The notes under the pieces: generated by a model
Told to the model about the DNA's origin: nothing
The model's database searches: none
The model's input: only the letters and a program-made list of their open reading frames with translations
Translations under genes and position numbers: made by a program
In this document: piece by piece, positions 904-57,400 of the stretch
Numbering within the stretch: the first letter of the stretch is position 1
Layout: each line of letters begins with the position of its first letter
Origin: Lepisosteus oculatus
Taxonomy: Eukaryota > Chordata > Actinopteri > Semionotiformes > Lepisosteidae
Length of the DNA: 64,000 nt
Reading direction: 5' to 3'
Assembly (NCBI RefSeq): GCF_040954835.1
Contig: NC_090709.1
Coordinates: forward strand, 39,610,975-39,674,974

Positions 904-941
<38 letters not shown>

Positions 942-1554
942 CCCTGTCCTCTCTCTGCCCAGCCCTTCTCGGAGATCGGTGTGTGTGTGTGTGTGTCTGA
1001 CCCTGTCCTCTCTCTGCCCAGCCCTTCTCGGAGATCGGTGTGTGTGTGTGACCCTGTCCTCTCTCTGCCCAGCCCTTCTCGGAGATCGGTGTGTGTGTGT
1101 GTGTGTGTGTCTGACCCTGTCCTCTCTCTGCCCAGCCCTTTTCGGAGATCGGTGTGTGTGTGTGTGTCTGACCCTGTCCTCTCTCTGCCCAGCCCTTTTC
1201 GGAGATCGGTGTGTGTGTGTGTGTCTGACCCTGTCCTCTCTCTGCCCAGCCCTTCTCGGAGATCTGTGTGTGTGTGTCTGACTCTGTCCTCTCTCTGCCC
1301 AGCCCTTCTCGGAGATCGGTGTGTGTGTCTGACCCTGTCCTCTCTCTGCCCAGCCCTTCTCGGAGATCGCGCAGCTGACGGACGTGCAGGAGGGCATCGT
1401 GGTGCGCTGTATCCAGCGTCTGGACGAGGTCCTGAAGGACGTGCGCAACGCCGCCCGCATCGTGGGCGACTCGGTGCTGCACTCCAAGATGGAGCAGGCC
1501 TCCACCGCCATCAAGAGGGACATCGTCTTCACCGCCTCCCTGTACACCCACTGA
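598..1554 (+). CDS. skic2: SKIV2L (SKIC2) RNA helicase, last two coding exons (partial)
   Basis: C-terminal end of the cytosolic Ski2 helicase, the RNA-unwinding subunit of the Ski complex that feeds mRNA to the exosome. Exons: 598-738 (47 codons, begins [10 protein letters not shown], ends YCWARGM) and 1354-1554 (begins PFSEIAQL, ends [11 protein letters not shown], then TGA at 1552-1554). From family knowledge these match the end of the DSHCT domain of vertebrate SKIV2L, including the [27 protein letters not shown] and RRDIVFAASLYT-type motifs. Acceptors end GTTGCAG and TGCCCAG; the donor after 738 is GTGAGA. Both exons are in phase 0. The helicase core lies off the left edge. In mammals the gene is in MHC class III. 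The intron between the exons carries repeated copies of the second acceptor (see the repeat at 905-1353). Confidence 0.95.
905..1353 (+). repeat. Intronic array with copies of the SKIV2L last-exon splice acceptor
   Basis: After a (GT)n tract, a unit of about 50-60 bp repeats. It holds the polypyrimidine tract CCTCTCTCTGCCCAG, the first 16 or so nt of the last exon (CCCTTCTCGGAGATCG, or CCCTTTTC in two copies) and a (GT)n run of variable length. Seven copies precede the real exon start at 1354. AG dinucleotides sit near 962, 1021, 1071, 1133, 1192, 1249 and 1301. Confidence 0.93.
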
Positions 1555-5000: not shown

Positions 5001-8000
5001 GCAGGTCAGAGCCGCCGGGCCGCCCGGGGGGACCGAGAGGCGGACGGGGTCCTGCTCGGGACACACTGGGTGGAGGGGACGGAGAGAGTGGACGGGGGTC
5101 AGCGTCGGCGGGGAGGGGCGGGCGGTGGAGGAGGAAGAGGAGGAAGAGGGGAGAGGCGGCCCTCACCCGTCAGGACGAACTCCCACACGGCCTCGCCCGC
5201 CGAGCACTTGTACCGGCCGCTGTGGCGCAGCGACGCCGCGGTGATCGCCAGCGACCCGTTCCGGGACACGACGGGTCCCTTCTCCCTGCGCGCGCTCCTC
5301 GTCTCCGCCGCGCCCGTGTCCGGGCAGGTCACCTGCCCGAAGGGGGTGTGCCAGGTGACCGGCCATCCCACCCTGGAGCAGCCACGGAAGCAGGGGAGCT
5401 CGACCGGCCCTCCCATTGCCACGGAGACATAGATCTGAACTGCGGGGGGGGACACCGGCGCGTCAGACAGAGGTTCCCTGGACCCCGGGGTCTCGACCCG
5501 CTGATCCCCCCTGCAGAGCCGGGGTATCGGCTTCAGCAGCCACAGAACCTGAAGTCTAGACAGGGTTCACACTCGGAAACGGATTCAGACTCGGAAACTG
5601 AAGTGGAAACAGGTTCAGACTCGGAAACTGAAGCAGAAACAGGTTCAGACTCGGAAACTGAATTGGATTCGGATTCAGACTCAGAAACTGAAGTGCAAAC
5701 AGATTCAGACTCGGAAACTGAATTGGATTCGGATTCAGACTCAGAAACTGAAGTGCAAACAGATTCAGACTCGGAAACTGAATTGGATTCGGATTCAGAC
5801 TCAGAAACTGAAGTGCAAACAGATTCAGACTCGGAAACTGAAGTGCAAACGGATTCAGACTCAGAAACTGAAGTGCAAACAGATTCAGACTCGGAAACTT
5901 AAGTGGATTCGGATTCAGACTCGGAAACTGAAGTGGAAACGGATTCAGACTCGGAAACTGAAGTGCAAACGGATTCAGACTCAGAAACTGAAGTGCAAAC
6001 AGATTCAGACTCGGAAACTTAAGTGGATTCGGATTCAGACTCGGAAACTGAAGTGGAAACGGATTCAGACTCGGAAACTGAAGTGGAAACAGATCCCGAC
6101 TCGGAAACTGAAGCGGAAACGGATTCAGACTCGGAAACTGAAGCGGATTCGGATTCAGACTCGGAAACTGAAGCAGATTCGGATTCAGATTCAGACTCAG
6201 AAACTGAAATGCAAACAGATTCAGACTCGGAAACTGAAGTGGATTCAGATTCAGACTCGGAAACTGAAGTGGATTCGGATTCAGACTCGGAAACTGAAGT
6301 GGATTCAGATTCGGATTCAGACTCGGAAACTGAAGTGGATTCAGATTCAGACTCGGAAACTGAAGTGGATTCAGATTCGGATTCAGACTCGGAAACTGAA
6401 GTGCAAGCAGATTCAGACTCAGAAACTGAAGCGGAAACGGATTCAGACTCGGAAACTGAAGCGGAAACGGATTCAGACTCGGAAACTGAAGTGCAAACGG
6501 ATTAAGACTCGGAAACTGAAGTGGAAACAGATCCCGACTCGGAAACTGAAGCGGATTCGGATTCAGACTCGGAAACTGAAGCAGATTCGGATTCAGATTC
6601 AGACTCAGAAACTGAAATGCAAACAGATTCAGACTCGGAAACTGAAGTGGATTCGGATTCAGACTCGGAAACTGAAGTGGATTCGGATTCAGACTCGGAA
6701 ACTGAAGTGGATTCAGATTCGGATTCAGACTCGGAAACTGAAGTGGATTCAGATTCAGACTCGGAAACTGAAGTGGATTCAGATTCGGATTCAGACTCGG
6801 AAACTGAAGTGCAAGCAGATTCAGACTCAGAAACTGAAGCGGAAACGGATTCAGACTCGGAAACTGAAGCGGAAACGGATTCAGACTCGGAAACTGAAGT
6901 GCAAACGGATTAAGACTCGGAAACTGAAGTGGAAACAGATCCCGACTCGGAAACTGAAGCGGATTCGGATTCAGACTCGGAAACTGAAGCAGATTCGGAT
7001 TCAGATTCAGACTCAGAAACTGAAATGCAAACAGATTCAGACTCGGAAACTGAAGTGGATTCAGATTCAGACTCGGAAACTGAAGTGGATTCGGATTCAG
7101 ACTCGGAAACTGAAGTGGATTCAGATTCAGACTCTGAAACTGAAGTGGATTCAGATTCGGATTCAGACTCAGAAACTGAAGTGGATTCAGATTCGGATTC
7201 AGACTCAGAAACTGAAGTGCAAACAGATTCAGACTCTGAAACTGAAGTGGATTCAGATTCAGACTCGGAAACTGAAGTGGATTCGGATTCAGACTCGATA
7301 ACTGAAGTGGATTCAGATTCAGACTCTGAAACTGAAGTGGATTCAGATTCAGACTCTGAAACTGAAGTGGATTCAGATTCAGACTCGGAAACTGAAGTGG
7401 AAACAGATTCAGACTCTGAAACTGAAGTGGATTCGGATTCAGACTCAGAAACTGAAGTGGATTCAGATTCAGACTCGGAAACTGAAGTGGAAACAGATCC
7501 CGACTCAGAAACTGAAGCGGATTCGGATTCAGACTCGGAAACTGAAGCAGATTCGGATTCAGATTCAGACTCAGAAACTGAAATGCAAACAGATTCAGAC
7601 TGGGAAACTGAAGTGGATTCAGATTCAGACTCGGAAACTGAAGTGGATTCAGATTCAGACTCGGAAACTGAAGCGGATTCGGATTCAGACTCGGAAACTG
7701 AAGCGGATTCGGATTCAGACTCGGAAACTGAAGCGGAAACGGACTCTGGGCCCGGGGGTCCAGCAGCAGAACCCGCAGTGACTCACCGGTCAGCTGCGTC
7801 ACCTGGTAGCTGAGGCAGCGTGTCCCCTCCAGCACCACGCAGTAGTAATCGCCGCTGTCCTCCCGGCGGGGGTCCCGGAGGAGGAGGGAGGAGGAGTTGC
7901 CGTCGGAGACCCGCGCCCACTCCCCCAGATCTTCCACCAGCGACGGTGGGTCGGTGCCCGGGAGAGTGGGGACCGCCCTCCGGTGATGGTACCACAGGAC

Positions 8001-9670
8001 GGTCCTGCCCTTGGGCGCAGAGCCATCGGTGCAGCTCAGACTCGTGCTGTCCCCCTCGTGACAGGTCCCCTTGACGTCTTCCAGCTTCCTGGCGCAGACT
8101 GTGGGAGGTGCAGGGAAACTGAGTGGGTGGGTGGCAGCCACAGATCTCTCTTCTCTGTCTACCTGCTGCAGTTCTGACTTCTCTCCTGACGGGCAGCCGA
8201 TCTGACTTCCCTTTCCAAAGGCAGCGGATCTGACCTCTGTCCCCACAGGCAGCGGATCTGACTTCTCTGTCTAACTGCTGCAGATCTGACTTCTCTCCCG
8301 ACAGGCAGGAGATCTGAGATCCTCTCCCGACAGGCAGCAGATCTGAGATCCTCTCCTGACAGACAGCGGATTTGACTTCTCTTTCTAAAGGCAGCGGATC
8401 TGACCTCTGTCCCCACAGGCAGCAGATCTCTCATTACAGTCAGTGGATCTCACTTGTTCTGACAGGCAGCAGATCTGACTTCCCTCTTAACAGGCAGCAG
8501 ATCTGACTTCTCTAGCTAATGTCAGCAGATCTGACGACTGTCCTCTCCGATAGCAGATCTGACTTCCCTCTTAACAGGCAGCAGATCTGACTTCTCTAGC
8601 TAATGTCAGCGGATCTGACGACTGTCCTCTCCGATAGCAGATCTGACTTGAACTTGAACTTGAACTTCATTACCATATGTAACCGGTACTGGTACAATGG
8701 AATTCTTACTTACAGAAAGTCTCTCGATTGTAAAACAAGTGTAAAAAACAAGACAAAGTGCAAACAGACTTCCCTCTTAACAGGCAGCAGATCTGACTTC
8801 TCTAGCTACTGTCAGCGGATCTGACGACTGTCCTCTCCGATAGCAGATCTGACTTCCCTCTTAATAGGCAGCAGATCTGACCTCTTTCTAAAGGCAGCAG
8901 ATCTGTTCTCTTTCCCCACAGGCAGCAGATCTGACTTCTCTCATTACAGTCAGTGGATCTCACTTGTTCTGACAGGCAGCAGATCTGACTTCTCTAGCTA
9001 CTGTCAGCGGATCTGAGGACTGTCCTCTCCGATAGCAGATCCGACTTCCCTCTTAAGAGGCAGCAGATCTGACCTCTTTCCCGACAGCCTATCCAGCAGG
9101 TATGAAATGACCAAGCAGCCCGAGGCAGAGAGAGGAGCCCTTCACCTCACCTGTCAGGCTGTACTGTCTGCGACTGATGAGGCGGCCATCTTCCCATTCC
9201 TCGTACCAGTACAATCCCGAGTCGGACTCAGTAAGGTTGGTGATCTTGATGGTTTGTGTTCCTGCGCTGATTGCCTTACCGGTTTTAGAATCGAAATACT
9301 GGCTAGACATCCCTGAAACCAATACCCGGCCCGTTAGGTCTGGGACAGCGCTCGTGTTCCGTGACAAGTCAGAAACCACCTCCGGTCGATCCGCAGTTTG
9401 CCGGAAGATTTTGCATTCGATGACGGTATTCCTGCACGTCAGGGAGATCGCCCCCCCTCGGCTGACGAACTGCAGCTCTGCATCGGGCTGTGGGTGCTCT
9501 GCAGGGAGAGGGGAGGACACAGGATAGTAGGGTAGCCCAGAGCACCGACTGTCCTCCCCTCCCCAAACACACACACACACAGTCCACACTGACTGTCCAC
9601 ACACACACACACAGTCCACACTGACTGTCCACACACACACACACACACACACACTGTCCACACTGACTGT

Positions 9671-14618: not shown

Positions 14619-17600
14619 TCAGTAGCGGCAGAGCGTCAGCGGGTCGCGGTTCCGCCCCCCGCGGGCCGGGCCGGGGCACAGGTGGGCGGCGATGCTGGGG
14701 GAGGGGCAGTGCTCCTGGGTGTGGAGGGGGCTCATGTCGTCGGCGCTGTAGAAGGTGACCCGGCGGGCCCCGCAGTCCAGGTACACCCCCACGCGGCGGG
14801 GCCGGCCCGCGGGCCGCACCGGGCCCCCCCCGGCGCCGGCGCTGACCCGGTACCCGCTGCCCTCGCGCAGCTCCAGGACCACGAGGCTGTGGGGCCACAG
14901 GAAGTTGGCCAGCTTCTCGATCCAGCGGGTCTGCTTCTCCTGGGGGGGGGCAGGCAGGGTTAGAGACTGGACCCCTGGACCCCTGTACCCCTGGACCCCT
15001 GGACCCCTGGACACCTGGACACCTGCACCCCTGGACCCCTGGACCCCTGGACCCCTGGACACCTGGACCCATGTACCCCTGGACATCTGCATCCCTGGAC
15101 CCCTGGACCCCTGGACCCCTGGACACCTGCACCCCTGGACCCCTGGACACCTGCATCCCTGGACCCCTGGACCCCTGGACACCTGCATCCCTGGACCCCT
15201 GGACCCCTGTATTCCTGCATCCCTGGACCCCTGGACCCCTGGACCCCTGTATCCCTCCCTGGAGCCAACATGGATAACATGGCTGGGCAGCCTGTTCCCC
15301 ACCCCCACCCCCCTCTGTGTACAGCAGAGCCTCCTGTCCTGACTGGAGGAGCTCACCCAGCTGTGTCTGGAGAGCAGCCCCAGGGTATCGGCTTCAACCA
15401 CAGGGCTGGGCAGCTTGTTCCCCACCCCCACCCCCCTCTGTGTACAGAAGAGCCTCCTGTCCTGACTGGAGGAGCTCACCCAGCTGTGTCTGGAGAGAAG
15501 CCAGGGTATCGGCTTCAACCACAGGGCTGGGCAGCCTGTTCCCCACCCCCACCCCCCTCTGTGTACAGAAGAGCCCCACCCCATCACCCTTTTTCCCTGT
15601 CGGGACTGGAACCTGCAACCCTCCCATCAAGACCCCCGACCCCCGACCCCCGCCCCTCGCGACGCCCCTGAGCTGCGGTACCTGGACCTTCTCCAGCTGG
15701 ACGCCCACGCTCCAGTCCGTCTTCTGCCCCACTTCCACCTCCCAGTAGTGCGCGCCGGAGGAGAAGGTCTCCCGGCTGCGCACGGCCGCGGCGGGGGGGT
15801 CGGGCGGGGGGCCTCCGCGCTGGCGGCCCGGGGCGTCCGCGCGCCGCACGCTGCACGCGTCCGCTCCCACCACCAGGGAGGGGTCGCCGGCGTCCACCAG
15901 GGTGAGCCGATCGGGAACTGGGTGGGGTGGGGAGAGAGGGGGGTACCCCGTGAGCTGAGGGGCGTCGCTGCCTGGCCAGGGCGGATGTGACTGGCTGGCT
16001 CGGCTCAGGCGGCCTCTGCACGTATTGTGTATTGGCCCTTATGGGTGTTGAACCTGAACACCCTGGTGCACACCTGTATGCAACTGTACACACCCGTACA
16101 CACCTGAACACATCCTATACATACCCGAACACACCTGAACACCCTGGTGCACACCTGTATGGAACTGTACACACCCACACACACCTGAACACATCCTATA
16201 CACACCCGTACACACCTGAACACCCTGGTGCACACCTGTATGGAACTGTACACACCCACACACACCTGAACACATCCTATACACACCCGTACACACCTGA
16301 ACACCCTGGTGCACACCTGTATGCAACTGTACACACCCACACACACCTGAACACATCCTATACATACCCGTACACACCTGAACACCCTGGTGCACACCTG
16401 TATGGAACTGTACACACCCACACACACCTGAACACATCCAATATACACCCGCACACACCTGAACACCCTGGTGCACACCTGTATGGAACTGTACACACCC
16501 ACACACACCTGAACACATCCAATACACACCCGTACACACCTGAACACCCTGGTGCACACATGTATGCAACTGTACACACCCACACACACCTGAACACATC
16601 CAATACACACCCGTACACACCTGAACACCCTGGTGCACATCTGTATGCAACTGTACACACCTGAACACCCTGGTGCACACCTCTATGCAACTGTACACAC
16701 CCACACACACCTGAACACATCCAATACACACCCCTACACAGCTGAAAACTCTGGTGCACATCTGTATGCAACTGTACACACCTGCATACACCTGCACACA
16801 CTGGTACACATCTGCACACACCTGCACACACTGCTACACACCTGTCCTGAGGACCTGCTGCATCTCCCTCCAGATGAAGTACTGCAGGTGAGTCTCGTAG
16901 GGCCCCAGGGACAGAGAGCCGGGTGTCACGCTCACAGATTTCAGCCTGGACTCGTACCTGCAGGGGGGAGAGAGGGAGAGTCACACAGGCCACTCGACAC
17001 TGGGGGAGCAGGGGGGCCACAGGGGTGTCGACTGCAGTCTGGGAGACAGGAGACAGCCGAGTCTGGGAGACAGGAGTCTGGGAGACAGGAGTCTGGGAGA
17101 CTGCAGTCTGGGAGACGGGAGACAGCCGAGTCTGGGAGACTGCCGAGTCTGGGAGACTGCCGAGTCTGGGAGACGGGAGACAGGAGTCTGGGAGACAGCT
17201 GAGTCTGGGAGACTGCAGTCTGGGAGACAGGAGACAGGAGTCTGGGAGACAGCTGAGTCTGGGAGACTGCAGTCTGGGAGACTGCAGTCTGGGAGACAGG
17301 AGACAGGAGTCTGGGAGACAGCTGAGTCTGGGAGACTGCAGTCTGGGAGACAGGAGACAGGAGTCTGGGAGACAGGAGACAGGAGTCTGGGAGACAGCTG
17401 AGTCTGGGAGACTGCAGTCTGGGAGACGGGAGACAGCCGAGTCTGGGAGACAGCTGAGTCTGGGAGACTGCAGTCTGGGAGACGGGAGACAGCAGTCTGG
17501 GAGACAGGAGACAGGAGTCTGGGAGACAGGAGACAGGAGTCTGGGAGACAGCTGAGTCTGGGAGACGGGAGACAGCCGAGTCTGGGAGACAGCCGAGTCT

Positions 17601-24073: not shown

Positions 24074-28013
<3,940 letters not shown>

Positions 28014-39386: not shown

Positions 39387-42300
39387 CTATCTCAGCACGG
39401 CCTTCTCTACGTACTGACAGAGACAGGGGGTGTTGGTCCTCCTGACGTGCAGGGGGCGCTCTTCGGAGGGCAGCCCGCGGGCCGCCAGGAGCCTCACGTA
39501 GACGGCGCCGTAGGTGAGCAGGAGGCGATGGGCCATCTCCTGCAGAGGGGCGGAGAATCGAGCAGATCGCGTGGGGGTATATCGGGTCTGCGGGTGCCGC
39601 CTGGCCCTCTCGCGCGAGAGAGGGAGGCAGCAGGGATGTACAGTATCCGAGAGGCCGGGGAGGGGTTCAGTCGCTGTGTCAGAGCGTCGGTGTGTAGGTC
39701 AGTGGGTGTCAGGCTACCGGCCACTGTGTCCGTTGATCGTCGCAGGGTCAGTGCGTGAGAGTGTCAGCCGGTCAGTGTGTCACAATGTCGCTGTGTCAGC
39801 GGGTGGGAGTGTCAGGATGTCAGCTGGTCAGAGTGGGAGAGTGTCAGTGTGTGAGAGTGTTGTCCCATCTCTCGGTCAGCACCAGTCTGTCCGCACACAG
39901 CGGTCAGTGTGGGAGAGTGTTGTCCCATCTCTCGGTCAGCACCAGTCCGTCCGCACACAGCGGTCAGTGTGTGAGAGTGTTGTCCCATCTCTCGGTCAGC
40001 ACCAGTCCGTCCGCGCACAGCGGTCAGTGTGTGAGAGTGTTGTCCCATCTCTCGGTCAGCACCAGTCCGTCCGCGCACAGCGGTCAGTGTGTGAGAGTGT
40101 TGTCCCATCTCTCGGTCAGCACCAGTCTGTCCGCGCACAGCGGTCAGTGTGTGAGGGTGTTGTCCCATCTCTCGGTCAGCACCAGTCTGTCCGCGCACAG
40201 CGGTCAGTGTGGGAGAGTGTTGTCCCATCTCTCGGTCAGCACCAGTCTGTCTGCACACAGAGGTCAGTGTGTGAGAGTGTTGTCCCATCTCTCGGTCAGC
40301 ACCAGTCTGTCCGCACACAGCGGTCAGTGTGTGAGGGTGTTGTCCCATCTCTCGGTCAGCACCAGTCTGTCCGCACACAGCGGTCAGTGTGTGAGGGTGT
40401 TGTCCCATCTCTCGGTCAGCACCAGTCTGTCCGCACACAGCGGTCAGTGTGTGAGGGTGTTGTCCCATCTCTCGGTCAGCACCAGTCTGTCCGCACACAG
40501 CGGTCAGTGTGTGAGGGTGTTGTCCCATCTCTCGGTCAGCACCAGTCTGTCCGCACACAGCGGTCAGTGTGTGAGGGTGTTGTCCCATCTCTCGGTCAGC
40601 ACCAGTCTGTCCGCACACAGCGGTCAGTGTGTGAGGGTGTTGTCCCATCTCTCGGTCAGCACCAGTCTGTCCGCACACAGCGGTCAGTGTGGGAGAGTGT
40701 TGTCCCATCTCTCGGTCAGCACCAGTCTGTCCGCACACAGCGGTCAGTGTGGGAGAGTGTTGTCCCATCTCTCGGTCAGCACCAGTCTGTCCGCACACAC
40801 AGCGGTCAGTGTGTGAGAGTGTTGTCCCATCTCTCGGTCAGCACCAGTCTGTCTGCACACAGCGGTCAGTGTGTGAGGGTGTTGTCCCATCTCTCGGTCA
40901 GCACACCCAGCGGTCAGTGGGCCGGACTCACCTCGGGGGTCCCCTCGGGCACCAGGCTGTAGCTCTTGCTCAGCTGGGGCTCCCTCTGCTGGCCGCGGGC
41001 GGAATCGCGGGCCGGCTCCTGCTCCCCTCCGCTCAGCAGCAGGGGGGTCTCCTCCGAATCCGCGGCCTCCGCCGACCCCTCGGGGTCGGGGGTCGCGACC
41101 TTCACGAGCAGCAGGAGGTGGGCGAGTCTCTGGTGCAGCTTGGACTGTAAGAGAGGGGAGGGGAGTTTGTGTTCACGGTCAGTATGGAGAATTCAACGGC
41201 AGGGATCGGGGGACAGGATGTTGAGGGTTCGAGTCTGCTCTGTCCACTGTGGCACCTAACGGCACCAGAATTGGCTCTGCATCCCTTCTGGAAGGAGAGA
41301 CCCCACTCTGGGCCAGCACAGCTGGGTGAGCTCCTCCAGTCAGGACAGGGGGCTCTGCTGTACACAGAGGGTGGTGGGGGTGGGGAACAAGCTGCCCAGC
41401 CCTGTGGTTGAAGCCGATACCCTGGCTTCTCTCCAGACACAGCTGGATGAGCTCCTCCAGTCAGGACAGGAGGCTCTGCTGTACACAGAGGGGGGTGGGG
41501 GTGGGGAACAAGCTGCCCAGCCCTGTGGTTGAAGCCGATACCCCGGCTTCTCTCCAGACACAGCTGGGTGAGCTCCTCCAGTCAGGACAGGAGGCTCTGC
41601 TGTACACAGAGGGGGGTGGGGGTGGGGAACAAGCTGCCCAGCCCTGTGGTTGAAGCCGATACCCTGGCTTCTCTCCAGACACAGCTGGGTGAGCTCCTCC
41701 AGTCAGGACAGGAGGCCCTGCTGTACACAGAGTGGGGTGGGGGTGGGGAACAGCTCCTCTCGGGGGCTGTGGGTTTGTGACCTGTCCTCCGCTCTCCTCG
41801 CTCAGGAGTGACGCTGGAGCTGGGAGTGATGTCGGTCTCCCTGGGGGCCCCCCTCGGCGCTGGACAGCGAGACCCACCTGCAGCTGAGCCCGGACGAAGC
41901 TCTGCTCCTCCAGCAGCTCGGTCAGCCTGGCCCGGCAGCCGGACAGGTCAAAGTGGACAAAGAGCAGCTGACCCAGTTAAGGAAAGGTGTGTGTGTGTGT
42001 GTAATTCAGTGTGTGGGGTTCAGTCTGTGGGTCTGTGTGTGATTCAGTCTGTGTGTTGGGGTGTGGTTCAGTGTGTATAATTCACTGGGTGCGGTTCGGG
42101 GGGGATGTATAATTTGGGGGGTGCGTTTCGGGGGGGGTGTATAATTCGGGGTGTGTGGTTCGGGAGCGGGGTGTATAATTCGGGGGGTGTATAATTCACT
42201 GGGTGTCAGGGTGTGGTTCAGTGTGTATAATTCGGGGGGTGTGGTCCGGGAGGGGTGTATAATTCGGGGGGTGTGGTCCGGGAGGGGTGTATAATTCGGG

Positions 42301-45300
42301 GCGTGCGGTTCAGGGGGGTGTATAATTCGGGGCGTGTGGTCCGGGAGGGGTGTATAATTCGGGGCGTGCGGTTCGGGGGGGTGTATAATTCGGGGGGTGT
42401 GGTCCGGGAGGGGTGTATAATTCGGGGCGTGCGGTTCAGGGGGGTGTATAATTCGGGGTGTGTGGTCCGGGAGGGGTGTATAATTCGGGGCGTGCGGTTC
42501 GGGGGGGTGTATAATTCGGGGGGTGCGGTCCGGGAGGGGTGTATAATTCGGGGGGTGTGGTCCGGGAGGGGTGTATAATTCGGGGTGTGTGGTCCGGGAG
42601 GGGTGTATAATTCGGGGTGTGCGGTTCGGGAGGGGTGTATAATTCGGGGTGTGCGGTTCGGGGGGGGTGTATAATTCGGGGTGTGTGGTTCGGGGGGGTG
42701 TATAATTCGGGGCGTGCGGTTCGGGGGGGGTGTATAATTTGGGGTGTGTGGTCCGGGAGGGGTGTATAATTCGGGGTGTGTGGTTCGGGGGGGGTGTATA
42801 ATTCGGGGGGTGCGGTCCGGGAGGGGTGTATAATTCGGGGGGTGTGGTTCGGGGGGGTGTATAATTCGGGGGGTGTGGTCCGGGAGGGGTGTATAATTCG
42901 GGGGGTGCAGTTCGGGGGGGTGTCGGTGAAGGATACTTGATGGAGGCTGGAGCAGTTCTGCACCGTGTCCCAGACTCCAGTCAGGAGCTCGTGTTGGCTC
43001 AGCACCTCGTTGGCCTGGATCAGCCTCACGTCAGTGTTCATGTTGATCTGGGAGAGAGAACGAGCGGTCTCTGAGTCTCGGGGTACGGGGGTATCCCTCG
43101 GCCCCGGGGATAGGGACTGACCTTCCTGTTGTTTTGACCGAGGATGAGGAGGACCAGTGAGGTGAGCAGGACAGCCAGGACACTGACCGACAGGCAGAAC
43201 AGCCAGAATCTCCTCTCCACCAAGCTGCTGAGGTACAGATGGAGCGAGGAGTAGAGGCCACACCAGATCACCATGTACACAGCCTGGGGAGAGAGAGAGA
43301 CACCAGATCACCATGTACACAGCCTGGAGAGAGACACACCAGATCACCATGTACACAGCCTGGAGAGAGACACACTAGATCACCATGTACACAGCCTGGA
43401 GAGAGACACACTAGATCACCATGTACACAGCCTGGGGAGAGAGAGAGAGACACCAGATCACCATGTACACAGCCTGGAGAGAGACACACCAGATCACCAT
43501 GTACACAGCCTGGGGAGAGAGAGAGAGAGACACCAGATCACCATGTACACAGCCTGGAGAGAGACACACAGACACCAGATCACCATGTACACAGCCTGGG
43601 GAGAGACACACAGACACCAGATCACCACGTACACAGCCTGGAGAGAGACACACAGACACCAGATCACCACGTACACAGCCTGGAGAGAGACACAGACACC
43701 AGATCACCATGTACACAGCCTGGAGAGAGACACAGACACCAGATCACCACGCACACAGCCTGGCGAGAGACACACAGACACCAGATCACCACGTACACAG
43801 CCTGGAGAGAGACACACAGACACCAGATCACCACGTACACAGCCTGGAGAGAGACACACAGACACCAGATCACCATGTACACAGCCTGGAGAGAGACACA
43901 CAGACACCAGATCACCATGTACACAGCCTGGAGAGAGAGAGAGACCAGATCACCATGTACACAGCCTGGAGAGAGAGAGAGACCAGATCACCATGTACAC
44001 AGCCTGGAGAGAGAGAGAGACCAGATCACCATGTACACAGCCTGGAGAGAGACACACAGACACCAGATCACCATGTACACAGCCTGGAGAGAGACACACA
44101 GACACCAGATCACCATGTACACAGCCTGGGGAGAGACACACAGACACCAGATCACCACGTACACAGCCTGGAGAGAGACACACAGACACCAGATCACCAC
44201 GTACACAGCCTGGAGAGAGACACAGACACCAGATCACCATGTACACAGCCTGGAGAGAGACACAGACACCAGATCACCACGCACACAGCCTGGCGAGAGA
44301 CACACAGACACCAGATCACCACGTACACAGCCTGGAGAGAGACACACAGACACCAGATCACCACGTACACAGCCTGGAGAGAGACACACAGACACCAGAT
44401 CACCATGTACACAGCCTGGAGAGAGACACACAGACACCAGATCACCATGTACACAGCCTGGAGAGAGAGAGAGACCAGATCACCATGTACACAGCCTGGA
44501 GAGAGAGAGAGACCAGATCACCATGTACACAGCCTGGAGAGAGAGAGAGACCAGATCACCATGTACACAGCCTGGAGAGAGACACACAGACACCAGATCA
44601 CCATGTACACAGCCTGGAGAGAGACACACAGACACCAGATCACCATGTACACAGCCTGGAGAGAGACACACAGACACCAGATCACCATGTACACAGCCTG
44701 GAGAGAGACACACAGACACCAGATCACCATGTACACAGCCTGGAGAGAGACACACAGACACCAGATCACCATGTACACAGCCTGGAGAGAGACACACAGA
44801 CACCAGATCACCATGTACACAGCCTGGAGAGAGACGCACAGACACCAGATCACCATGTACACAGCCTGGAGAGAGACACACAGACACCAGATCACCATGT
44901 ACACAGCCTGGAGAGAGACACACAGACACCAGATCACCATGTACACAGCCTGGAGAGAGACACACAGACACCAGATCACCATGTACACAGCCTGGAGAGA
45001 GACACACCAGATCACCATGTACACAGCCTGGGGAGAGAGAGACACCAGATCACCATGTACACAGCCTGGGGAGAGAGAGACACCAGATCACCATGTACAC
45101 AGCCTGGAGAGAGAGAGACACCAGATCACCATGTACACAGCCTGGAGAGAGACACACAGACACCAGATCACCACGTACACAGCCTGGAGAGAGACACACA
45201 GACACCAGATCACCACGCACACAGCCTGGAGAGAGACACACAGACACCAGATCACCACGCACACAGCCTGGAGAGAGACACACAGACACCAGATCACCAT

Positions 45301-48181
45301 GTACACAGCCTGGAGAGAGACACACAGACACCAGATCACCATGTACACAGCCTGGAGAGAGACACACAGACACCAGATCACCACGCGCACAGCCTGGGGA
45401 ACAGGGAGAGAAGTCCAGTTCGGAGTGACTCACTGGGGCCAGGAAGAGTTGGAAGAGGGTGGAGTTGAACAGGAGGTAGCGTCTGATCGAAGGGCTGTCC
45501 AGGGCGTTCAGGAAGGGTCGGTCGAATTCCTGGACCGGGATCTGGAATATACTCCTATTGTAACAGACTGTTCTACTGGACTGGGACTGGAGCTCCTATT
45601 GTAACAGACTGTTCTACTGGACTGGGACTGGAGCTCCTATTGTAACAGACTGGTCTACTGGACTGGGACTGGAGCTCCTATTGTAACAGACTGGTCTACT
45701 GCACTGGGACTGGAGCTCCTATTGTAACAGACTGTTCTACTGGACTGGGACTGGAGCTCCTATTGTAACAGGACTGTTCTACTGCACTGGGACTGGAGCT
45801 CCTATTGTAACAGACTGTTCTACTGCACTGGGACTGGAGCTCCTATTGTAACAGACTGTTCTACTGCACTGGGACTGGAGCTCCTATTGTAACAGACTGT
45901 TCTACTGCACTGGGACTGGAGCTCCTATTGTAACAGACTGGTCTACTGGACTGGGACTGGAGCTCCTATTGTAACAGACTGGTCTACTGCACTGGGACTG
46001 GAGCTCCTATTGTAACAGGACTGTTCTACTGGACTGGGACTGGAGCTCCTATTGTAACAGACTGGTCTACTGGACTGGGACTGGAGCTCCTATTGTAACA
46101 GGACTGTTCTACTGCACTGGGACTGGAGCTCCTATTGTAACAGGACTGTTCTACTGCACTGGGACTGGAGCTCCTATTGTAACAGACTGGTCTACTGCAC
46201 TGGGACTGGAGCTCCTATTGTAACAGACTGTTCTACTGCACTGGGACTGGAGCTCCTATTGTAACAGACTGTTCTACTGGACTGGGACTGGAGCTCCTAT
46301 TGTAACAGGACTGTTCTACTGGACTGGGACTGGAGCTCCTATTGTAACAGACTGTTCTACTGCACTGGGACTGGAGCTCCTATTGTAACAGACTGGTCTA
46401 CTGGACTGGGACTGGAGCTCCTACTGTAACAGACTGTTCTACTGCACTGGGACTGGAGCTCCTATTGTAACAGGACTGTTCTACTGCACTGGGACTTGAG
46501 CTCCTATTGTAACAGACTGTTCTACTGGACTGGGACTGGAGCTCCTATTGTAACAGGACTGTTCTACTGCACTGGGACTGGAGCTCCTATTGTAACAGAC
46601 TGGTCTACTGGACAGGGACTGGAGCTCCTATTGTAACAGACTGTTCTACTGCACTGGGACTGGAGCTCCTATTGTAACAGACTGTTCTACTGCACTGGGA
46701 CTGGAGCTCCTATTGTAACAGACTGGTCTACTGCACTGGGACTGGAGCTCCTATTGTAACAGGACTGTTCTACTGCACTGGGACTGGAGCTCCTATTGTA
46801 ACAGACTGTTCTACTGCACTGGGACTGGAGCTCCTATTGTAACAGACTGGTCTACTGCACTGGGACTGGAGCTCCTATTGTAACAGACTGGTCTACTGCA
46901 CTAGAAAATTAGCTGGTCCAGAGAATTGCAATGATACATTCATTATCTATAACATATAATTATTATTATTAGTGAACACAGTGCCAGTGCAGTGTGAGAA
47001 TGCGTCCACAGGAGGGCGACAAATCCTACATTTTATGGCACACTCGAAATAAACTCCTTCGTCTTGCAGTACCGGGCGGCGAACACCAGGTGGCGGTGGC
47101 GGGCCTGCGCGGGGCTCACCTGAACACCCTTCGCGGCCAGCAGGTCTCTGCACAGAGCCAGGTCGAAGCGAGGGGCCCAGGGGCAGGTGGACGGGCAGGC
47201 CAGCAGCACCTGGCCGTTGCTCCGGGCTGTGGGGGCGGGACAGGCCGGAGGGAGGAGGTCAGGCCGAGCGCGGGTCCGAGGTGAGAGAGAAGGAGCGCCG
47301 AGTGACCGATCGGGCTACTTCTGCAGCTGGTGCTGCTCTGGGTACGATCCCTTCCTGCTGCAGCCAGGGCTGGGCTAGATCACAGGCGGGTGCCCGAAGA
47401 GGCTGGGCAGCCTGTTCCCCACCCCCACCCCCACCCCCCTCTGTGTACAGAAGAGCCTCCTGTCCTGACTGGAGGAGCTCACCCAGCTGTGTCTGGAGAG
47501 GAGCCAGGGTATCGGCTTCAACCACAGGGCTGGGCAGCTTGTTCCCCACCCCCACCCCCCTCTGTGTACAGAAGAGCCTCCTGTCCTGACTGGAGGAGCT
47601 CACCCAGCTGTGTCTGGAGAGAAGCCAGGGTATCGGCTTCAACCACAGGGCTGGGCAGCTTGTTCCCCACCCCCACCCCCCTCTGTGTACAGCAGAGCCT
47701 CCTGTCCTGACTGGAGGAGCTCACCCAGCTGTGTCTGGAGAGAAGCCAGGGTATCGGCTTCAACCACAGGGCTGGGCAGCCTGTTCCCCACCCCCACCCC
47801 CCTCTGTGTACAGTAGAGCCCCCTGTCCTGACTGGAGGAGCTCACCCAGCTGTGTCTGGAGAGGAGCCAGGGTATCGGCTTCAACCACAGGGCTGGGCAG
47901 CCTGTTCCCCACCCCCACCCCCCTCTGTGTACAGTAGAGCCCCCTGTCCTGACTGAGGGACTGAGTGCTGCTCCTCTTTCCCCTAGTCCTGCTGATACCA
48001 CTGTCCTGGCGCTTATATAACCGAGGATGATGAGGGCGACGAAGGCGGTTGTCTTACCGTTGGCGTGCAGGTGGGTCCCGCTGCCCTCGGACCGGTTGTC
48101 GGAGGCCGCGGGCCCCTCGGCCCTCACCGAGATGACCACCCCGTCGGCTGGCCTCTCCGGCTGACCGGGGCTCTCGGCCAT
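39387..48181 (-). CDS. tmem268: TMEM268-like two-pass membrane protein
   Basis: Full-length TMEM268 family member. Coding exons: 48181-48058, 47226-47120, 45541-45434, 43283-43122, 43047-42937, 41967-41878, 41144-40932, 39539-39387 (TAG at 39387-39389). Phases close; about 355 aa (human about 342). Family landmarks: NGQVLL near residue 47, F-D-L then IRRYLLFNS before the membrane, two hydrophobic helices (about 104-130 and 140-162), NTDVRLIQAN, LLTGVWDTVQ, LLFVHFDL, an acidic EETPLLL segment, SYSLVPEGTPEEMAHRLL, YVRLL and a C-terminal TNTPCLCQ. An acceptor (GGTCTTTCAG) just upstream of the ATG points to a non-coding first exon further right. Human TMEM268 lies on 9q32 in the MHC paralogon, so this copy next to MHC class III genes may be an ohnolog. 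The gene symbol names the family; orthology versus paralogy is unresolved. The function of the family is poorly known. Confidence 0.9.
39841..40920. repeat. 60-bp minisatellite, about 18 copies
   Basis: Unit exactly 60 bp: CGGTCAGTGTGTGAGAGTGT + TGTCCCATCTCTCGGTCAGC + ACCAGTCTGTCCGCACACAG. 60 bp = 20 codons, so several 300-480 codon frames result. Last intron of the TMEM268-like gene. Confidence 0.97.
41200..41322 (+). mobile_element. Possible tRNA-derived SINE fragment
   Basis: Contains GAGGGTTCGAGTCTGCTCTG (B-box-like) followed by a unique body, directly before a run of LINE-tail units. Low confidence; family unknown. Confidence 0.35.
41323..41757 (+). mobile_element. LINE-tail-derived 121-bp unit, about 3.6 tandem copies
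   Basis: Opposite orientation to most other copies. The plus strand reads [20 protein letters not shown]. Antisense in the TMEM268-like intron between exons 6 and 7. Confidence 0.8.
42060..42935. repeat. 29-32 bp minisatellite, about 29 copies
   Basis: Unit: GTGTATAATTCGGGGGGTGT + GGTCCGGGAGGG, with G-run variants. Reaches the exon 5 donor (42936) of the TMEM268-like gene. Confidence 0.94.
43284..45410 (-). repeat. 2.1-kb array of about 50 copies of the TMEM268-like exon 4 acceptor
   Basis: On the gene strand the usual 42-bp unit is CTCTCTCCAG + GCTGTGTACATGGTGATCTG + GTGTCTGTGTGT: a pyrimidine tract and AG followed by the first 22-24 nt of exon 4, whose true start is 43283. Units of about 34 bp (GAGAGAGAC variants) also occur. 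Segments near 43599-44128 and 44129-44570 repeat with a 530-bp period, a higher-order duplication. Long open frames come from the unit being 14 codons. Confidence 0.95.
45548..46905. repeat. 41-bp minisatellite, about 33 copies
   Basis: Unit: ACTGTTCTACTGCACTGGGA + CTGGAGCTCCTATTGTAACA + G. It extends to within a few bases of the TMEM268-like exon 3 acceptor: the intron end CAATAGGAG continues the unit before diverging to TATATTCCAG. Confidence 0.95.
47400..47960 (-). mobile_element. LINE-tail-derived 121-bp unit, about 4.6 tandem copies
   Basis: Longest minus-orientation run of the dispersed unit, in TMEM268-like intron 1, sense to the gene. Units are nearly identical, so the amplification is recent. 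Confidence 0.8.
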
Positions 48182-48284
48182 CGGCCCTGAAAGACCAGCC
48201 GGGTTCTTAACGAGGCTTAACGAGCGACAACTTTCTGTCTCCCTGTGGCACTTGAAAAGGCACTGCGCCCCTCAGGGTCCCCCA

Positions 48285-48615
48285 CCCCCCCCCTCTGTGT
48301 ACAGCAGAGCCTCCTGTCCTGACTGGAGGAGCTCACCCAGCTGTGTCTGGAGAGAAGCCAGGGTATCGGCTTCAACCACAGGGCTGGGCAGCCTGTTCCC
48401 CACCCCCACCCCCCTCTGTGTACAGTAGAGCCTCCTGTCCTGACTGGAGGAGCTCACCCAGCTGTGTCTGGAGAGAAGCCAGGGTATCGGCTTCAACCAC
48501 AGGGCTGGGCAGCTTGTTCCCCACCCCCACCCCCCTCTGTGTACAGTAGAGCCTCCTGTCCTGACTGGAGGAGCTCACCCAGCTTGTTCCCCACCCCCAC
48601 CCCCCTCTGTGTACA
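48285..48615 (-). mobile_element. LINE-tail-derived 121-bp unit, about 2.6 copies
   Basis: Run of units upstream of the TMEM268-like start codon, ending with a truncated unit in which CTCACCCAGC joins directly to TTGTTCCCCACC. Confidence 0.8.
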
Positions 48616-49404
48616 GAATAACGAGTTGCCCAAGACTGAAAACGCGACTTTCGTAGCGTCGCCCGCTACGAAAGCAGAATTTCCCGACGGACGGTCCTGC
48701 GCCTTTAAACTCCGTTTCCCGACGGTCCGATCCGAGCAGAGGCGGCAGCGATGGCGGTGCCCTCTTCTCCCGGGCAGTGCGAGCCGCGCGCCACGTCGTG
48801 TGTCTTTTTAACGAGATCGCGGTGCGAGGGGGCTGAAACAGCGGAAACAAAAACCGAACCAAAACGAAACAAAAAAAAAAAGAAACGGAGACGCAGCGTT
48901 TCGACCCCGTTTCCGGGTCGAGAAGCGCGGAGTCCCCGGCGCCGCCTGGCGGCCGCGGGCGGTAGCGGCACCCCGCCCGGCCTGCAGGTGCAGCAGCAGC
49001 ACCAGCAGACACTGGGGTGGAGCTGCTTCTTCGAACTGGCCATCGCAACTTCCGCTTGTGACCTGGGGGGGGCCGGAAACCGCCGGGCTCGCCGAGGGGC
49101 GGGCCAGCGGGGTGTGTGTGCTGTGTGTGTGTTGTGTGTGTATGCGCAGCGAGCCGGGTCGTCAGCTCGGAAGCAGAAGCGCTGTGCTGCTCTGCCCGCG
49201 GCGAGTTTCACTTCTGCAGCTGAGTCAGGCTCCGGCTGCAAGTGGCGATCGCGTCTCTTTTTATTGTTGATCTGGTTTATTTTTGCGCGCACCTGCAGAG
49301 CGGAGGGGGGGGTTGAGCTGGGTCGTCGGTAGCCAGCTGATCCGTCCGAGCCGTCTGCCCCCGGCTGTTTCCACAGCGAGGCCGGGCTTCCGACTTTAAA
49401 TAAC
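48616..49404 (-). promoter_or_regulatory. CpG-rich promoter-like region upstream of TMEM268-like gene
   Basis: Unique CpG-rich sequence. A minus-strand GCTCTGCAG/GTGCGC near 49290 would be a suitable donor for a non-coding first exon joining the acceptor near 48188. The inference is from position and composition; no TSS motif is decisive. Confidence 0.4.
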
Positions 49405-49600
49405 GAGGCTGGGCGGCTTGTTCCCCACCCCCACCCCCCTCTGTGTACAGAAGAGCCTCCTGTCCTGACTGGAGGAGCTCACCCAGCTGTGTCTGGAGAG
49501 AAGCCGGGGTATTGGCTTCAACCACAGGGCTGGGCAGCCTGTTCCCCACCCCCACCCCCCTCTGCGTACAGTAGAGCCTCCTGTCCTGCCTGGAGCTGTG
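49405..49600 (-). mobile_element. LINE-tail-derived 121-bp unit, about 1.5 copies
   Basis: One complete and one partial copy, the second degenerating into CTGGAGCTGTGTCTGGACAG. Confidence 0.75.
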
Positions 49601-54174: not shown

Positions 54175-54405
54175 TTTCAGGACAGGAGGCTCTGCTGTAC
54201 ACAGAGGGTGGTGGAGGTGGGGAACAAGCTGCCCAGCCCTGTGGTTGAAGCCGATGCCCCGGCTTCTCTCCAGACACAGCTGGGTGAGCTCCTCCAGTCA
54301 GGACAGGAGGCTCTGCTGTACACAGAGGGGGGTGGGGGTGGGGAACAAGCTGCCCAGCCCTGTGGTTGAACCCGATACCCTGGCTCCTCTCCAGACACAG
54401 CTGGA
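54175..54405 (+). mobile_element. LINE-tail-derived 121-bp unit, about 1.9 copies
   Basis: Plus-orientation copies just below the IgSF-2 stop codon, probably in its 3' UTR in antisense. Confidence 0.78.
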
Positions 54406-54455
54406 TGGCCTGGTCTGCTGCTAATTTACAGTGCTCAGGAACTGTGGGAGGGGTC

Positions 54456-57400
54456 CTAGCTGCCGGCCTTGACGGCGGAGTAAATGACGGCGTCTCCGCC
54501 CCCCGCCGGCCCCGCCCCCCCGGGCCCGGGGTTGAAGGTCACGCTGGCGTAGTTCTCGTCGGCGGTCGCCGGGGTCACCTGCCCCCCTGCAGCCGGTTTG
54601 ACTTCGTCGTAGGGGGTCTCTCCTGGAGAGGGGAGATCAGCGATACTGTTACTGTCCAGTGGGACTCGTCAGCTGGTGTTCTTCTCCAAATGGGAGGCTC
54701 TGCTGTACACAGAGAGGGGCGGGGGTGGGGAACAAGGCTGCCCAGCCCTGTGGTTGAAGCCGATACCCTGGCTTCTCTCCAGACACAGCTGGGTGAGCTC
54801 CTCCAGTCAGGACAGGAGGCTCTACTGTACACGGTGGGGGGTGGGGGTGGGGAACAGGCTGCCCAGCCCTGTGGTTGAAGCCGATACCCTGGCTTCTCTC
54901 CAGACACAGCTGGGTGAGCTCCTCCAGTCAGGACAGGGGGCTCTACTGTACACAGAGGGGGGTGGGGGTGGGGAACAAGCTGCCCAGCCCTGTGGTTGAA
55001 GCTGATACCCTGGCTTCTCTCCAGACACAGCTGGGTGAGCTCCTCCAGTCAGGACAGGAGGCTCTGCTGTACACAGAGGGGGGCGGGGGTGGGGAACAGG
55101 CTGCCCAGCCCTGTGGTTGAAGCCGATACCCTGGCTTCTCTCCAGACACAGCTGGGTGAGCTCCTCCAGTCAGGACAGGGGGCTCTTCTGTACACAGAGG
55201 GGGGTGGGGGTGGGGAACAGGCTGCCCAGCCCTGTGGTTGAAGCCGATACCCTGGCTTCTCTCCACACACAGCTGGGTGAGCTCCTCCAGTCAGGACAGG
55301 AGGCTCTGCTGTACACAGAGGGGGGTGGGGGTGGGGAACATGCTGCCCTGCTGGGGGAGCTCCTGGGATCCGTTCCCTCCTGCAGTCACAGACCAGCACC
55401 AGGAATTTCTCGGTGGTTTGACAGCTCAGTCTTCCCCAACCCCAGGACGACGGCCGTCAGTCGCTGTGCTCGGGGCGGGTACCCGGATCGGGCTGTGTGT
55501 TGCTGCTCTGACTCTCTTGACCCACCTGTGTTTGGGCCCGGGCTCTGACCCACGGACTGCTCCTTCCTCATCCTCCTCTTCCTCCCCCTCCAGACGCACA
55601 GCCCGACTGCGGCGCTGACCAGCACGACCGCAAGGACCAGTGGAACCAGTACTGTCCACAGCGGGTTGGACGGGCCTGAGGAGGAGAGAATCCCAGCCCC
55701 CTCAGTCCAGGTGAGATCACAGTGGTCCGGTCTGGCCCGAGTCCCTCTGCGTGTGTCTCTGCTGTGCCTGTCTGACTGTGGCATGACTGTGTGTGTTGTG
55801 TCTCTGTGATTCTGTAATGTGTGTGTTGTGTGTTGTCTGTGCCTGTCTGCGTGTGTCTCTGCTGTGCCTGTCTGACTGTGGCATGACTTTGTGTGTTGTG
55901 TCTCTGCGTTTCTCTAATGTGTGTTGTGTGTTGTCTGTGCCTGTCTGATTATGGCATGACTGTGTGTGTTGTGTCTCTGCGTTTCTCTAATGTGTGTTGT
56001 CTGTGCCTGTCTGCGTGTGTCTCTGCTGTGCCTGTCTGACTGGCATGACTCTGTGTTGTGTCTCTGCATTTCTGTAATGTGTGTTGTCTGTGCCTGTCTG
56101 CGTGTGTCTCTGCTGTGCCTGTCTGACTGGCATGACTCTGTGTTGTGTCTCTGCATTTCTGTAATGTGTGTTGTCTGTGCCTGTCTGCGTGTGTCTCTGC
56201 TGTGCCTGTCTGACTGTGACATGACTGTGTGTGATGTCTCTGTGTTTCTGTAATGTGTGTGTTGTGTGTTGTCTGTGCGTGAGTGGTCACTGCCCTGGTT
56301 TCTGTGTTTGCTACCTGATGGATTACCTGCACTGGGTCCAGGTGTGTCTTTGTCCTTCAGGTCGATGGTCCACTCCTGGATGGAGGTGATCTCTGCTCCG
56401 TCTCCGATCGCGATGCACAGGATCCTCTCAGGCCCCTGGGGCTGACGGACAATCCTGGCTCTGACGGTCTGCCCTGTTCGCTCACTGGCGCCGCCCTGCA
56501 GTGGGACCCCAGTACTGTCCCTCCAGCTCAGCTCCGTGTGGCCACAGCCCAGCCCGCAGGTGAGGGAGCAGGTCAGGGTGATGTTGGAGCCCTGCTGCAC
56601 CTCTCCAGTGTGATCGGCGCTCACTGGGGAAAAGATCGAAGCCGCGGTGACCTGTCGGATCAAAATGAGCACCTTCCCAGCCAGCCCACACCTGCTCCAG
56701 TTGTCCCCACAAGGCTGTGCAATCCCAGATAGGCTGTGCAGATGGGACCTACCTGACAGCGTGTTCAGAGCGACGCTCTGATGGTCTTGCAGAAGCTTTG
56801 TATCTTGATAACGTGAACACTTGTAGACGCCGCTGTCCTGGGTCCGGACCTGAGAGATCAGCAGTGATGTGTTCTGTGCCATCTGGACTCTGTCATCTAC
56901 TGTCTGCCCTTTGAGAGGAGTTCCCACACGTACGAGGGTATAGAGTGTCTCACTGAGGCTGGTATTGAATCTCTGAAAGGTCCAGACCAGCTTCTCTCCA
57001 CCTTCCAGGTCAGCGGTCAGCAGACAGGGGAGGTGGAGGGAGCCGCCCTCAGGGGCGAACACCTCTCTCGAACCCGGGACCGCGGGACGTTCTGTGGAAG
57101 CAAGAGGAGGAAGGGGGTTTCAGACACCGACAGTTCACAGCAGGCCTGGTGTTCCCCTGCCAAACTAGACGGTTACCATGGAGTGGAGTAAAGTGGACTA
57201 CAGTGTAGTATAGTGCAGTACAGTATAGTGTGGTATAGCCAGCTACACTAGTGTAGCACGGGGCAGTGCACAGCAGTATTGCATAGTATAGTGCAGTTAT
57301 ACAGTACAGTATATGGTAGCACGGTGCAGCTCAGTGCAGTATAGCGCAGTAATACAGTACAGTATATTAAAGAATGGTGCAGCTCAGTGCAGTATAGCGC

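Follow-up and report, generated by a model that had tools for sequence, protein, structure and literature searches.

How the splicing machinery settles on one acceptor has usually been studied two sites at a time, and the locus described here puts the same question with 53 near-identical acceptors in a single intron. The gene is encoded on the minus strand of the 64,000-nucleotide stretch of DNA that was analysed as a whole (hereafter the window). From the donor it is 82 nt to the nearest usable acceptor and 2150 nt to the last, which adjoins an exon of 162 nt. The pairing rules discussed below make opposite predictions for these two sites, and only one of them keeps the protein, which makes the gene a natural test of how cells choose the places at which RNA is cut. 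We consider it probable that a minisatellite has captured the splice acceptor, that the resulting array is intronic and evolves without coding constraint, and that the exon-proximal acceptor is the one normally used.

The gene had been called TMEM268-like in an earlier note made on this DNA, and the protein bears this out. Eight coding exons were placed in 39387..48186 on the minus strand (48186-48058, 47226-47120, 45541-45434, 43283-43122, 43047-42937, 41967-41878, 41144-40932, and 39539-39387). The conceptual protein obtained through acceptor 53, of 355 aa, matches positions 1-293 of the 293 positions of PF14800 (DUF4481, TMEM268 family) with an E-value of 7.5e-94 and a score of 314.8 bits, the cut-off being 25. 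Coding exon 3 (45434..45541, minus strand, 108 nt) ends in phase 0 and matches PF14800 positions 36-71 (E 5.1e-8), while coding exon 4 (43122..43283, minus strand), which carries the genuine acceptor, number 53, matches positions 73-121 (E 1.5e-9), starts at the same residue as its paralogue, and is followed by an intron of 74 nt. The match of exon 3 stops at position 71 and that of exon 4 takes up at 73, which gives no hint of an insertion between them.

The paralogue in question is a second gene of the DUF4481 family (contig C27:350051-352186), and the gene comparison was made with this paralogue within one assembly, no other species being taken in. It is compact, with about 2.1 kb for the matched exons, and its intron at the same position and phase as the array intron measures 307 nt; each of its junctions is present once, and TRF detected no tandem repeat in it. 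Aligned with the conceptual protein, it is 35% identical over 117 columns and shows no gap at the exon 3-4 junction, with one 4-column gap further on. Because the place and phase of the intron are the same and the protein alignment is free of gaps at the junction, the last acceptor, copy 53, is the conserved one. An alternative exon 4 elsewhere, which the earlier note had named as a refuting condition, receives a divided answer: the exon is unique by DNA search, yet a diverged paralogous gene does exist on C27. That search of the assembly (1,200,105,466 bases) returned 51 matches, of which one was the exon, 50 were in the array, and none lay outside, with the qualification that common words were skipped and absence elsewhere is accordingly not proof.

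Intron 3 (43284..45433, minus strand, 2150 nt) begins with the donor GTGAGT after 45434 and ends at the acceptor before 43283, and tandem repeats of period at least 10 cover 2114 of its 2150 nt. A unique leader of 40 nt (45394..45433, minus strand), made up of the donor and the sequence up to the first acceptor copy, is followed by 52 tandem units (43284..45393, minus strand), each made up of a copy of the exon 4 start, a pyrimidine-rich tract, and CCAG. The 53 acceptors are all on the minus strand, with first exon bases from 45393 down to 43283. About 50 tandem copies of a real acceptor together with the start of exon 4 had been proposed for 43284..45410, and both the number and the interval hold, the latter to within about 20 bases. 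The proposed order of pyrimidine tract, CCAG, and exon 4 start is also found. The exon copies extend over the first 22-25 nt of coding exon 4 (24 nt in 41 units, 22 in six, and 25 in five, point variants permitted) and the units are not uniformly 42 bp: 32 are of this length, nine of 38 bp, five of 40, five of 36, and one of 44.

The units are highly alike. CCAG is present at 53 of 53 acceptors when coding exon 4 is included, CTCTCT in 48 of the 52 units, and comparison of the 53 copies shows variation at five of their first 24 positions. The acceptor search required an AG, and the even spacing of 36-44 nt leaves no room for a copy that lacks one. A 23-mer covering the junction and the exon gave, at up to three mismatches, 53 matches on the minus strand, all in the array and exon, and none on the opposite strand of the 64-kb window. 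Open frames of 729-755 aa that run over the array on the plus strand are the reverse reading of the same repeat.

Acceptor strength was estimated with a simple splice matrix built on general base frequencies, for which only comparisons within the matrix count. On this scale, the median is 5.6 (quartiles 3.0 and 7.2) for the 36 acceptors mapped in three genes, among them the terminal TMEM268 site. The upstream copies range from 4.3 to 10.2 around a median of 6.0, and the terminal site scores 9.2. Every upstream copy (52/52) reaches the lower quartile of the mapped acceptors, and the score of the terminal site is equalled or exceeded by 8 of the 52, in agreement with the earlier contention that the splicing machinery faces many near-equal sites. 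The window has 10,211 AGs on its two strands, those of the array among them, and 1.2% of these reach the array median. Since eight upstream copies score no lower than the last copy, strength fails to favour the latter; its choice would not be explained by sequence strength and would have to be explained by position.

Two rules of position are available. According to PMC9225289, sites nearest to each other across the intron pair under intron definition, and those nearest across the exon pair under exon definition. For intron 3 the first rule predicts copy 2, with an intron of 82 nt, and the second predicts copy 53. The same study describes a general preference for upstream acceptors that is strong in short introns and only reduced when introns on both sides are long; only the class with a long upstream and a short downstream intron behaves like exon definition (PMC9225289, its label LS being taken to denote that class). 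With a next intron of 74 nt, the gene would belong to this long-short class, provided that the 2150-nt intron is the relevant one.

The consequences of the choice for the protein can be read from the sequence. Translated through exons 5-8, messages spliced at 50 of the 52 upstream copies meet a stop within the array, and those spliced at copies 51 and 52 meet one in exon 5. The normal end is reached from none of the 52, and copy 53 alone opens 242 codons to the normal stop. With respect to frame, 44 of the upstream acceptors are out of frame and eight in frame, all eight of the latter hitting a stop inside the array. The conserved protein demands copy 53, and this is the best-supported reading. 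Use of acceptor 1 was set aside, as it would need an intron of 40 nt, the shortest of 33 mapped introns being 74 nt long. Micro-exons within the array were also judged unlikely: in the unit that was inspected, the site most like a donor (ATG|GTGATC) scores 4.8, below the 6.9 of the exon 3 donor and the 8.5 of the exon 4 donor.

The reading that we favour, that of a captured acceptor followed by use of the exon-proximal copy, can be put as a sequence of steps. A tandem duplication across the intron-exon junction would have produced a minisatellite, and the array would then have grown by unequal exchange or slippage. Its unit may represent a whole acceptor module, consisting of a candidate branch point of coding origin, a CU-rich tract, CCAG, and the piece of exon 4; inspection of two units gave GTGAT as the best branch-point candidate, at distances of 23 and 25 nt upstream of the AG. 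Each duplication would leave an intact junction beside the exon, and growth would be invisible to the protein as long as the last acceptor is used. Because duplication would always leave that junction in place, the array can be regarded as intronic and free of coding constraint, and the mixed unit lengths and the stops also speak against such constraint. The last acceptor would probably be chosen through definition of the 162-nt exon 4 between this acceptor and its own donor.

The strongest competitor is a ladder of isoforms, in which many copies would be used, the messages would differ in how many units they keep, most of them would be lost to nonsense-mediated decay, and the array would lower or tune the output of the gene by means of poison acceptors. 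That all 52 copies score like mapped acceptors is consistent with this, as is the premature stop that follows each of them, 50 in the array and two in exon 5, which is the layout of a poison exon extension. It also agrees with the use of minisatellite units as alternative splice donors in human IFI6, as relayed in PMC4526556, and with the general upstream-acceptor preference reported in PMC9225289. This preference is the main argument against the use of copy 53, would favour acceptor 2 and a truncated protein, and is the reason why our confidence in the exon-proximal reading is slightly reduced and that in the ladder slightly raised. On the other hand, with frequent use of the upstream copies, a gene whose eight exons are intact would lose most of its message, and comparable arrays in amphioxus, termed mirages, are reported in PMC3087553 and PMC3902484 not to disturb splicing. 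On balance, we regard the ladder as unlikely.

Capture of a junction is not confined to this intron. A census was made of 69 junctions in three genes, with 26 exons from SKIV2L, eight from the TMEM268-family gene, and three from a PRRT1-like gene, first exons not being sought; each junction was represented by 30 bases, 15 from either side, and occurrences of this string within 8 kb were counted. The SKIV2L exons were mapped by alignment to the human protein (PDB 9g8r, 7qdr) and best-scoring sites; 48 edges were proposed, six were changed by hand after inspection, one unclear donor (that of listed exon 20) was left out, and the exon numbers are list positions. Extra tandem copies occur at 4 of the 69 junctions, namely at three of the 36 acceptors and one of the 33 donors, and the same four are obtained at 2, 4, and 6 mismatches, the TMEM268 exon 4 string being counted 14, 48, and 52 times, respectively. 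Capture is thereby seen on both sides of exons, with two acceptors in SKIV2L and one in TMEM268, and a donor in the PRRT1-like gene. Among control strings of 30 bases, extra copies were found for 1 of 60 from exon interiors, which falls within the seventh mapped SKIV2L exon, and for 265 of 351 from introns.

The last SKIV2L exon, which matches human Superkiller complex protein 2 with an E-value of 2.9e-19, is preceded by an array at 922..1369 (plus strand) containing seven extra copies (exon starts at 963, 1022, 1073, 1136, 1193, 1250, and 1303) and the genuine acceptor at 1354. Six of the seven extra acceptors meet a stop and one is frameshifted. The mirror image of this arrangement is found at 26990..27290 (plus strand), where the genuine donor at 27020, in a putative PRRT1-like exon, is accompanied by copies at 27125 and 27203 and by a partial copy. 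The three donors score 10.8, 11.2, and 10.8 in the matrix, and the two extra ones are in frame but run into a stop.

The remaining array belongs to the seventh mapped SKIV2L exon (L029:5986-6340 on contig C14, some 13.5 kb before the window begins), where the acceptor and 67 nt of exon, as judged by eye, are present in three tandem copies. Its two extra acceptors are both in frame and open, and isoforms with 52 or 96 more residues would be possible. The rule that protein is made from the exon-proximal copy alone has its one exception in this array, and the frame does not force use of that copy everywhere. Copies in the three acceptor arrays end at GT-rich runs or right beside them, from which we infer slippage or template switching between such runs as a plausible origin. 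An intron would in this way be able to grow by copying its own end with the protein untouched, and this seems to have happened in several genes of one region.

The region itself is an outlier in its repeat content. Tandem arrays of period at least 10 make up 59.9% of the window; among 20 comparison stretches of 10 kb, which were set at fixed positions on 16 contigs rather than randomly drawn, the median is about 0.4%, with 17 below 5% and the others at 16%, 25%, and 43%. Six-frame Pfam scans of the last of these, L013, the 43% minisatellite stretch, yielded no usable gene and one match below the cut-off. Within the three genes, 19 of 33 introns contain at least 60 bp of array, and arrays account for 70% of intron bases versus 0.6% of exon bases. 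Junction capture is most readily understood as a side effect of intense growth of minisatellites in GC-rich introns.

Several other arrays were observed in passing. A further array, of about 41 bp per unit (45542-46900), occupies a large part of the intron that precedes coding exon 3 and reaches to about 10 nt from the acceptor of this exon, leaving a poor pyrimidine tract and a matrix score of -2.7, the lowest of the 36. A unit of about 121 bp, which contains CCTCCTGTCCTGACTGGAGGAGCTCACCCAGCTGTGTCTGGAGAGAAGCC, recurs on both strands at many places, often in tandem (approximately at 15277, 27444, 41340-41760, 47420-47960, 48320-48620, 49400-49600, and 54300-55300), and resembles a dispersed repeat which in addition forms arrays. 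About 70 copies of a 30-bp unit form an array at 5556-8270 (minus strand), directly after an exon that was read by eye as Ig-like; several frames stay open through this array, with 904 aa on the minus strand, and it is probably intronic.

A more speculative extension, which we hold to be a little less likely still than the ladder, would make the array a functional dial. The 52 decoy acceptors would be bound and partly used, array length would determine what fraction of messages is lost through premature stops, and variation in length between individuals would then tune the output of the gene. More broadly, junctions would be captured repeatedly in minisatellite-rich stretches of this genome, as at the 4 of 69 found here, with introns growing from their own splice sites.

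That the array is an artefact of assembly, the true one being shorter or absent, is very improbable. A 13-unit block of 530 bp is present in two head-to-tail copies (units 19-31 and 32-44; 43596..44655, minus strand) that are equal letter for letter, at 530 of 530 bases, with 14 equal units at a shift of 13. This exact duplication could be an assembly error, and long near-identical arrays are hard to assemble. Against an artefact, the 52 units comprise 17 distinct sequences, the units at the edges differ from the bulk, and the window contains no N anywhere. Three more arrays of the same type occur in neighbouring genes, and arrays of other kinds fill 60% of the window. As for the proposal of the earlier note that the unit is free of stops and that upstream copies add hydrophobic blocks of 14 residues in frame, it has next to no chance of being right: the commonest unit, of 42 bp, does equal 14 codons without a stop, but 20 of the 52 units differ in length, the lengths of the exon-adjoining units 46-52 are mixed (44, 36, 42, 36, 36, 36, and 40 bp), an in-frame TAG is carried by units 49 and 50 (as ATCTAG, in the exon-proximal units 49-52 at 43284..43431, minus strand), for which reasons the frame is open into exon 4 and on to the normal end from 0 of 52 acceptors, and the PF14800 matches on either side give no sign of an insertion.

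Among known systems, duplication across splice signals is also a feature of intron gain by tandem duplication (PMC4974935, with a model in PMC3087553). Intron gain by this route makes a new intron, whereas here an existing one grows. NAGNAG and similar tandem alternative acceptors are examples of competing acceptors in a row. Acceptors of that type lying within 9 nt of each other are chosen after one common first step, according to PMC9225289, whereas the copies described here are spaced by 36-44 nt, have a tract each, and number 53. The repeat of the earthworm metallothionein gene is intronic only, unlike the junction-spanning array. As for acceptor arrays in vertebrates, none was found in the open-licence literature, which is weak evidence of absence.

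Human minisatellites offer two partial parallels. In IFI6 (6-16), two downstream units are used as donors and three mRNAs result (PMC4526556, citing Turri 1995). Both IFI6 and the present locus are thus minisatellites with splice-site units, but IFI6 is a donor-side case, whereas the large array consists of candidate sites on the acceptor side; the small PRRT1-like array is on the donor side. In human paralogues, minisatellite growth alters exon/intron structure and can bring in splice sites, as PMC2812944 describes. Those repeats have a mean unit of 30 bp present four times and change exons or make putative new introns, whereas here an existing junction has been copied 52 times.

The closest counterparts are the mirage minisatellites of amphioxus (Adh3, the globins BflGb6 and BflGb9, and TnC, with similar repeats in PGBD5), whose repeats, as here, span the intron-exon boundary and carry splice signals, and for which acceptor-side and donor-side cases are both known, as in the three genes studied (PMC3087553; PMC3902484). 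The same papers describe mirage units as homogenised inside the cluster and less so at its boundary. With respect to splicing, the RT-PCR results in PMC3087553 suggest that mirages do not interfere with regular splicing, and those of Adh and TnC are said in PMC3902484 not to generate aberrant mRNAs. For undisturbed splicing of the TMEM268-family gene, the frame and the paralogue would provide indirect support. By contrast, 53 acceptors stand in one array here, compared with six and three units in two BflGb6 haplotypes, and the units measure 36-44 bp, compared with 150-160 bp in BflGb6, although those of Adh3 are given as 10-72 bp. The intron here is almost wholly array, unlike those of the amphioxus mirages. 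At this locus and its neighbours, the unit spans the intron-exon boundary at 53 of 53 acceptors, the units carry splice signals, and both acceptor and donor sides are represented. In structure, the arrays match amphioxus mirages, a type described before in lancelets, of which the present one is unusually large.
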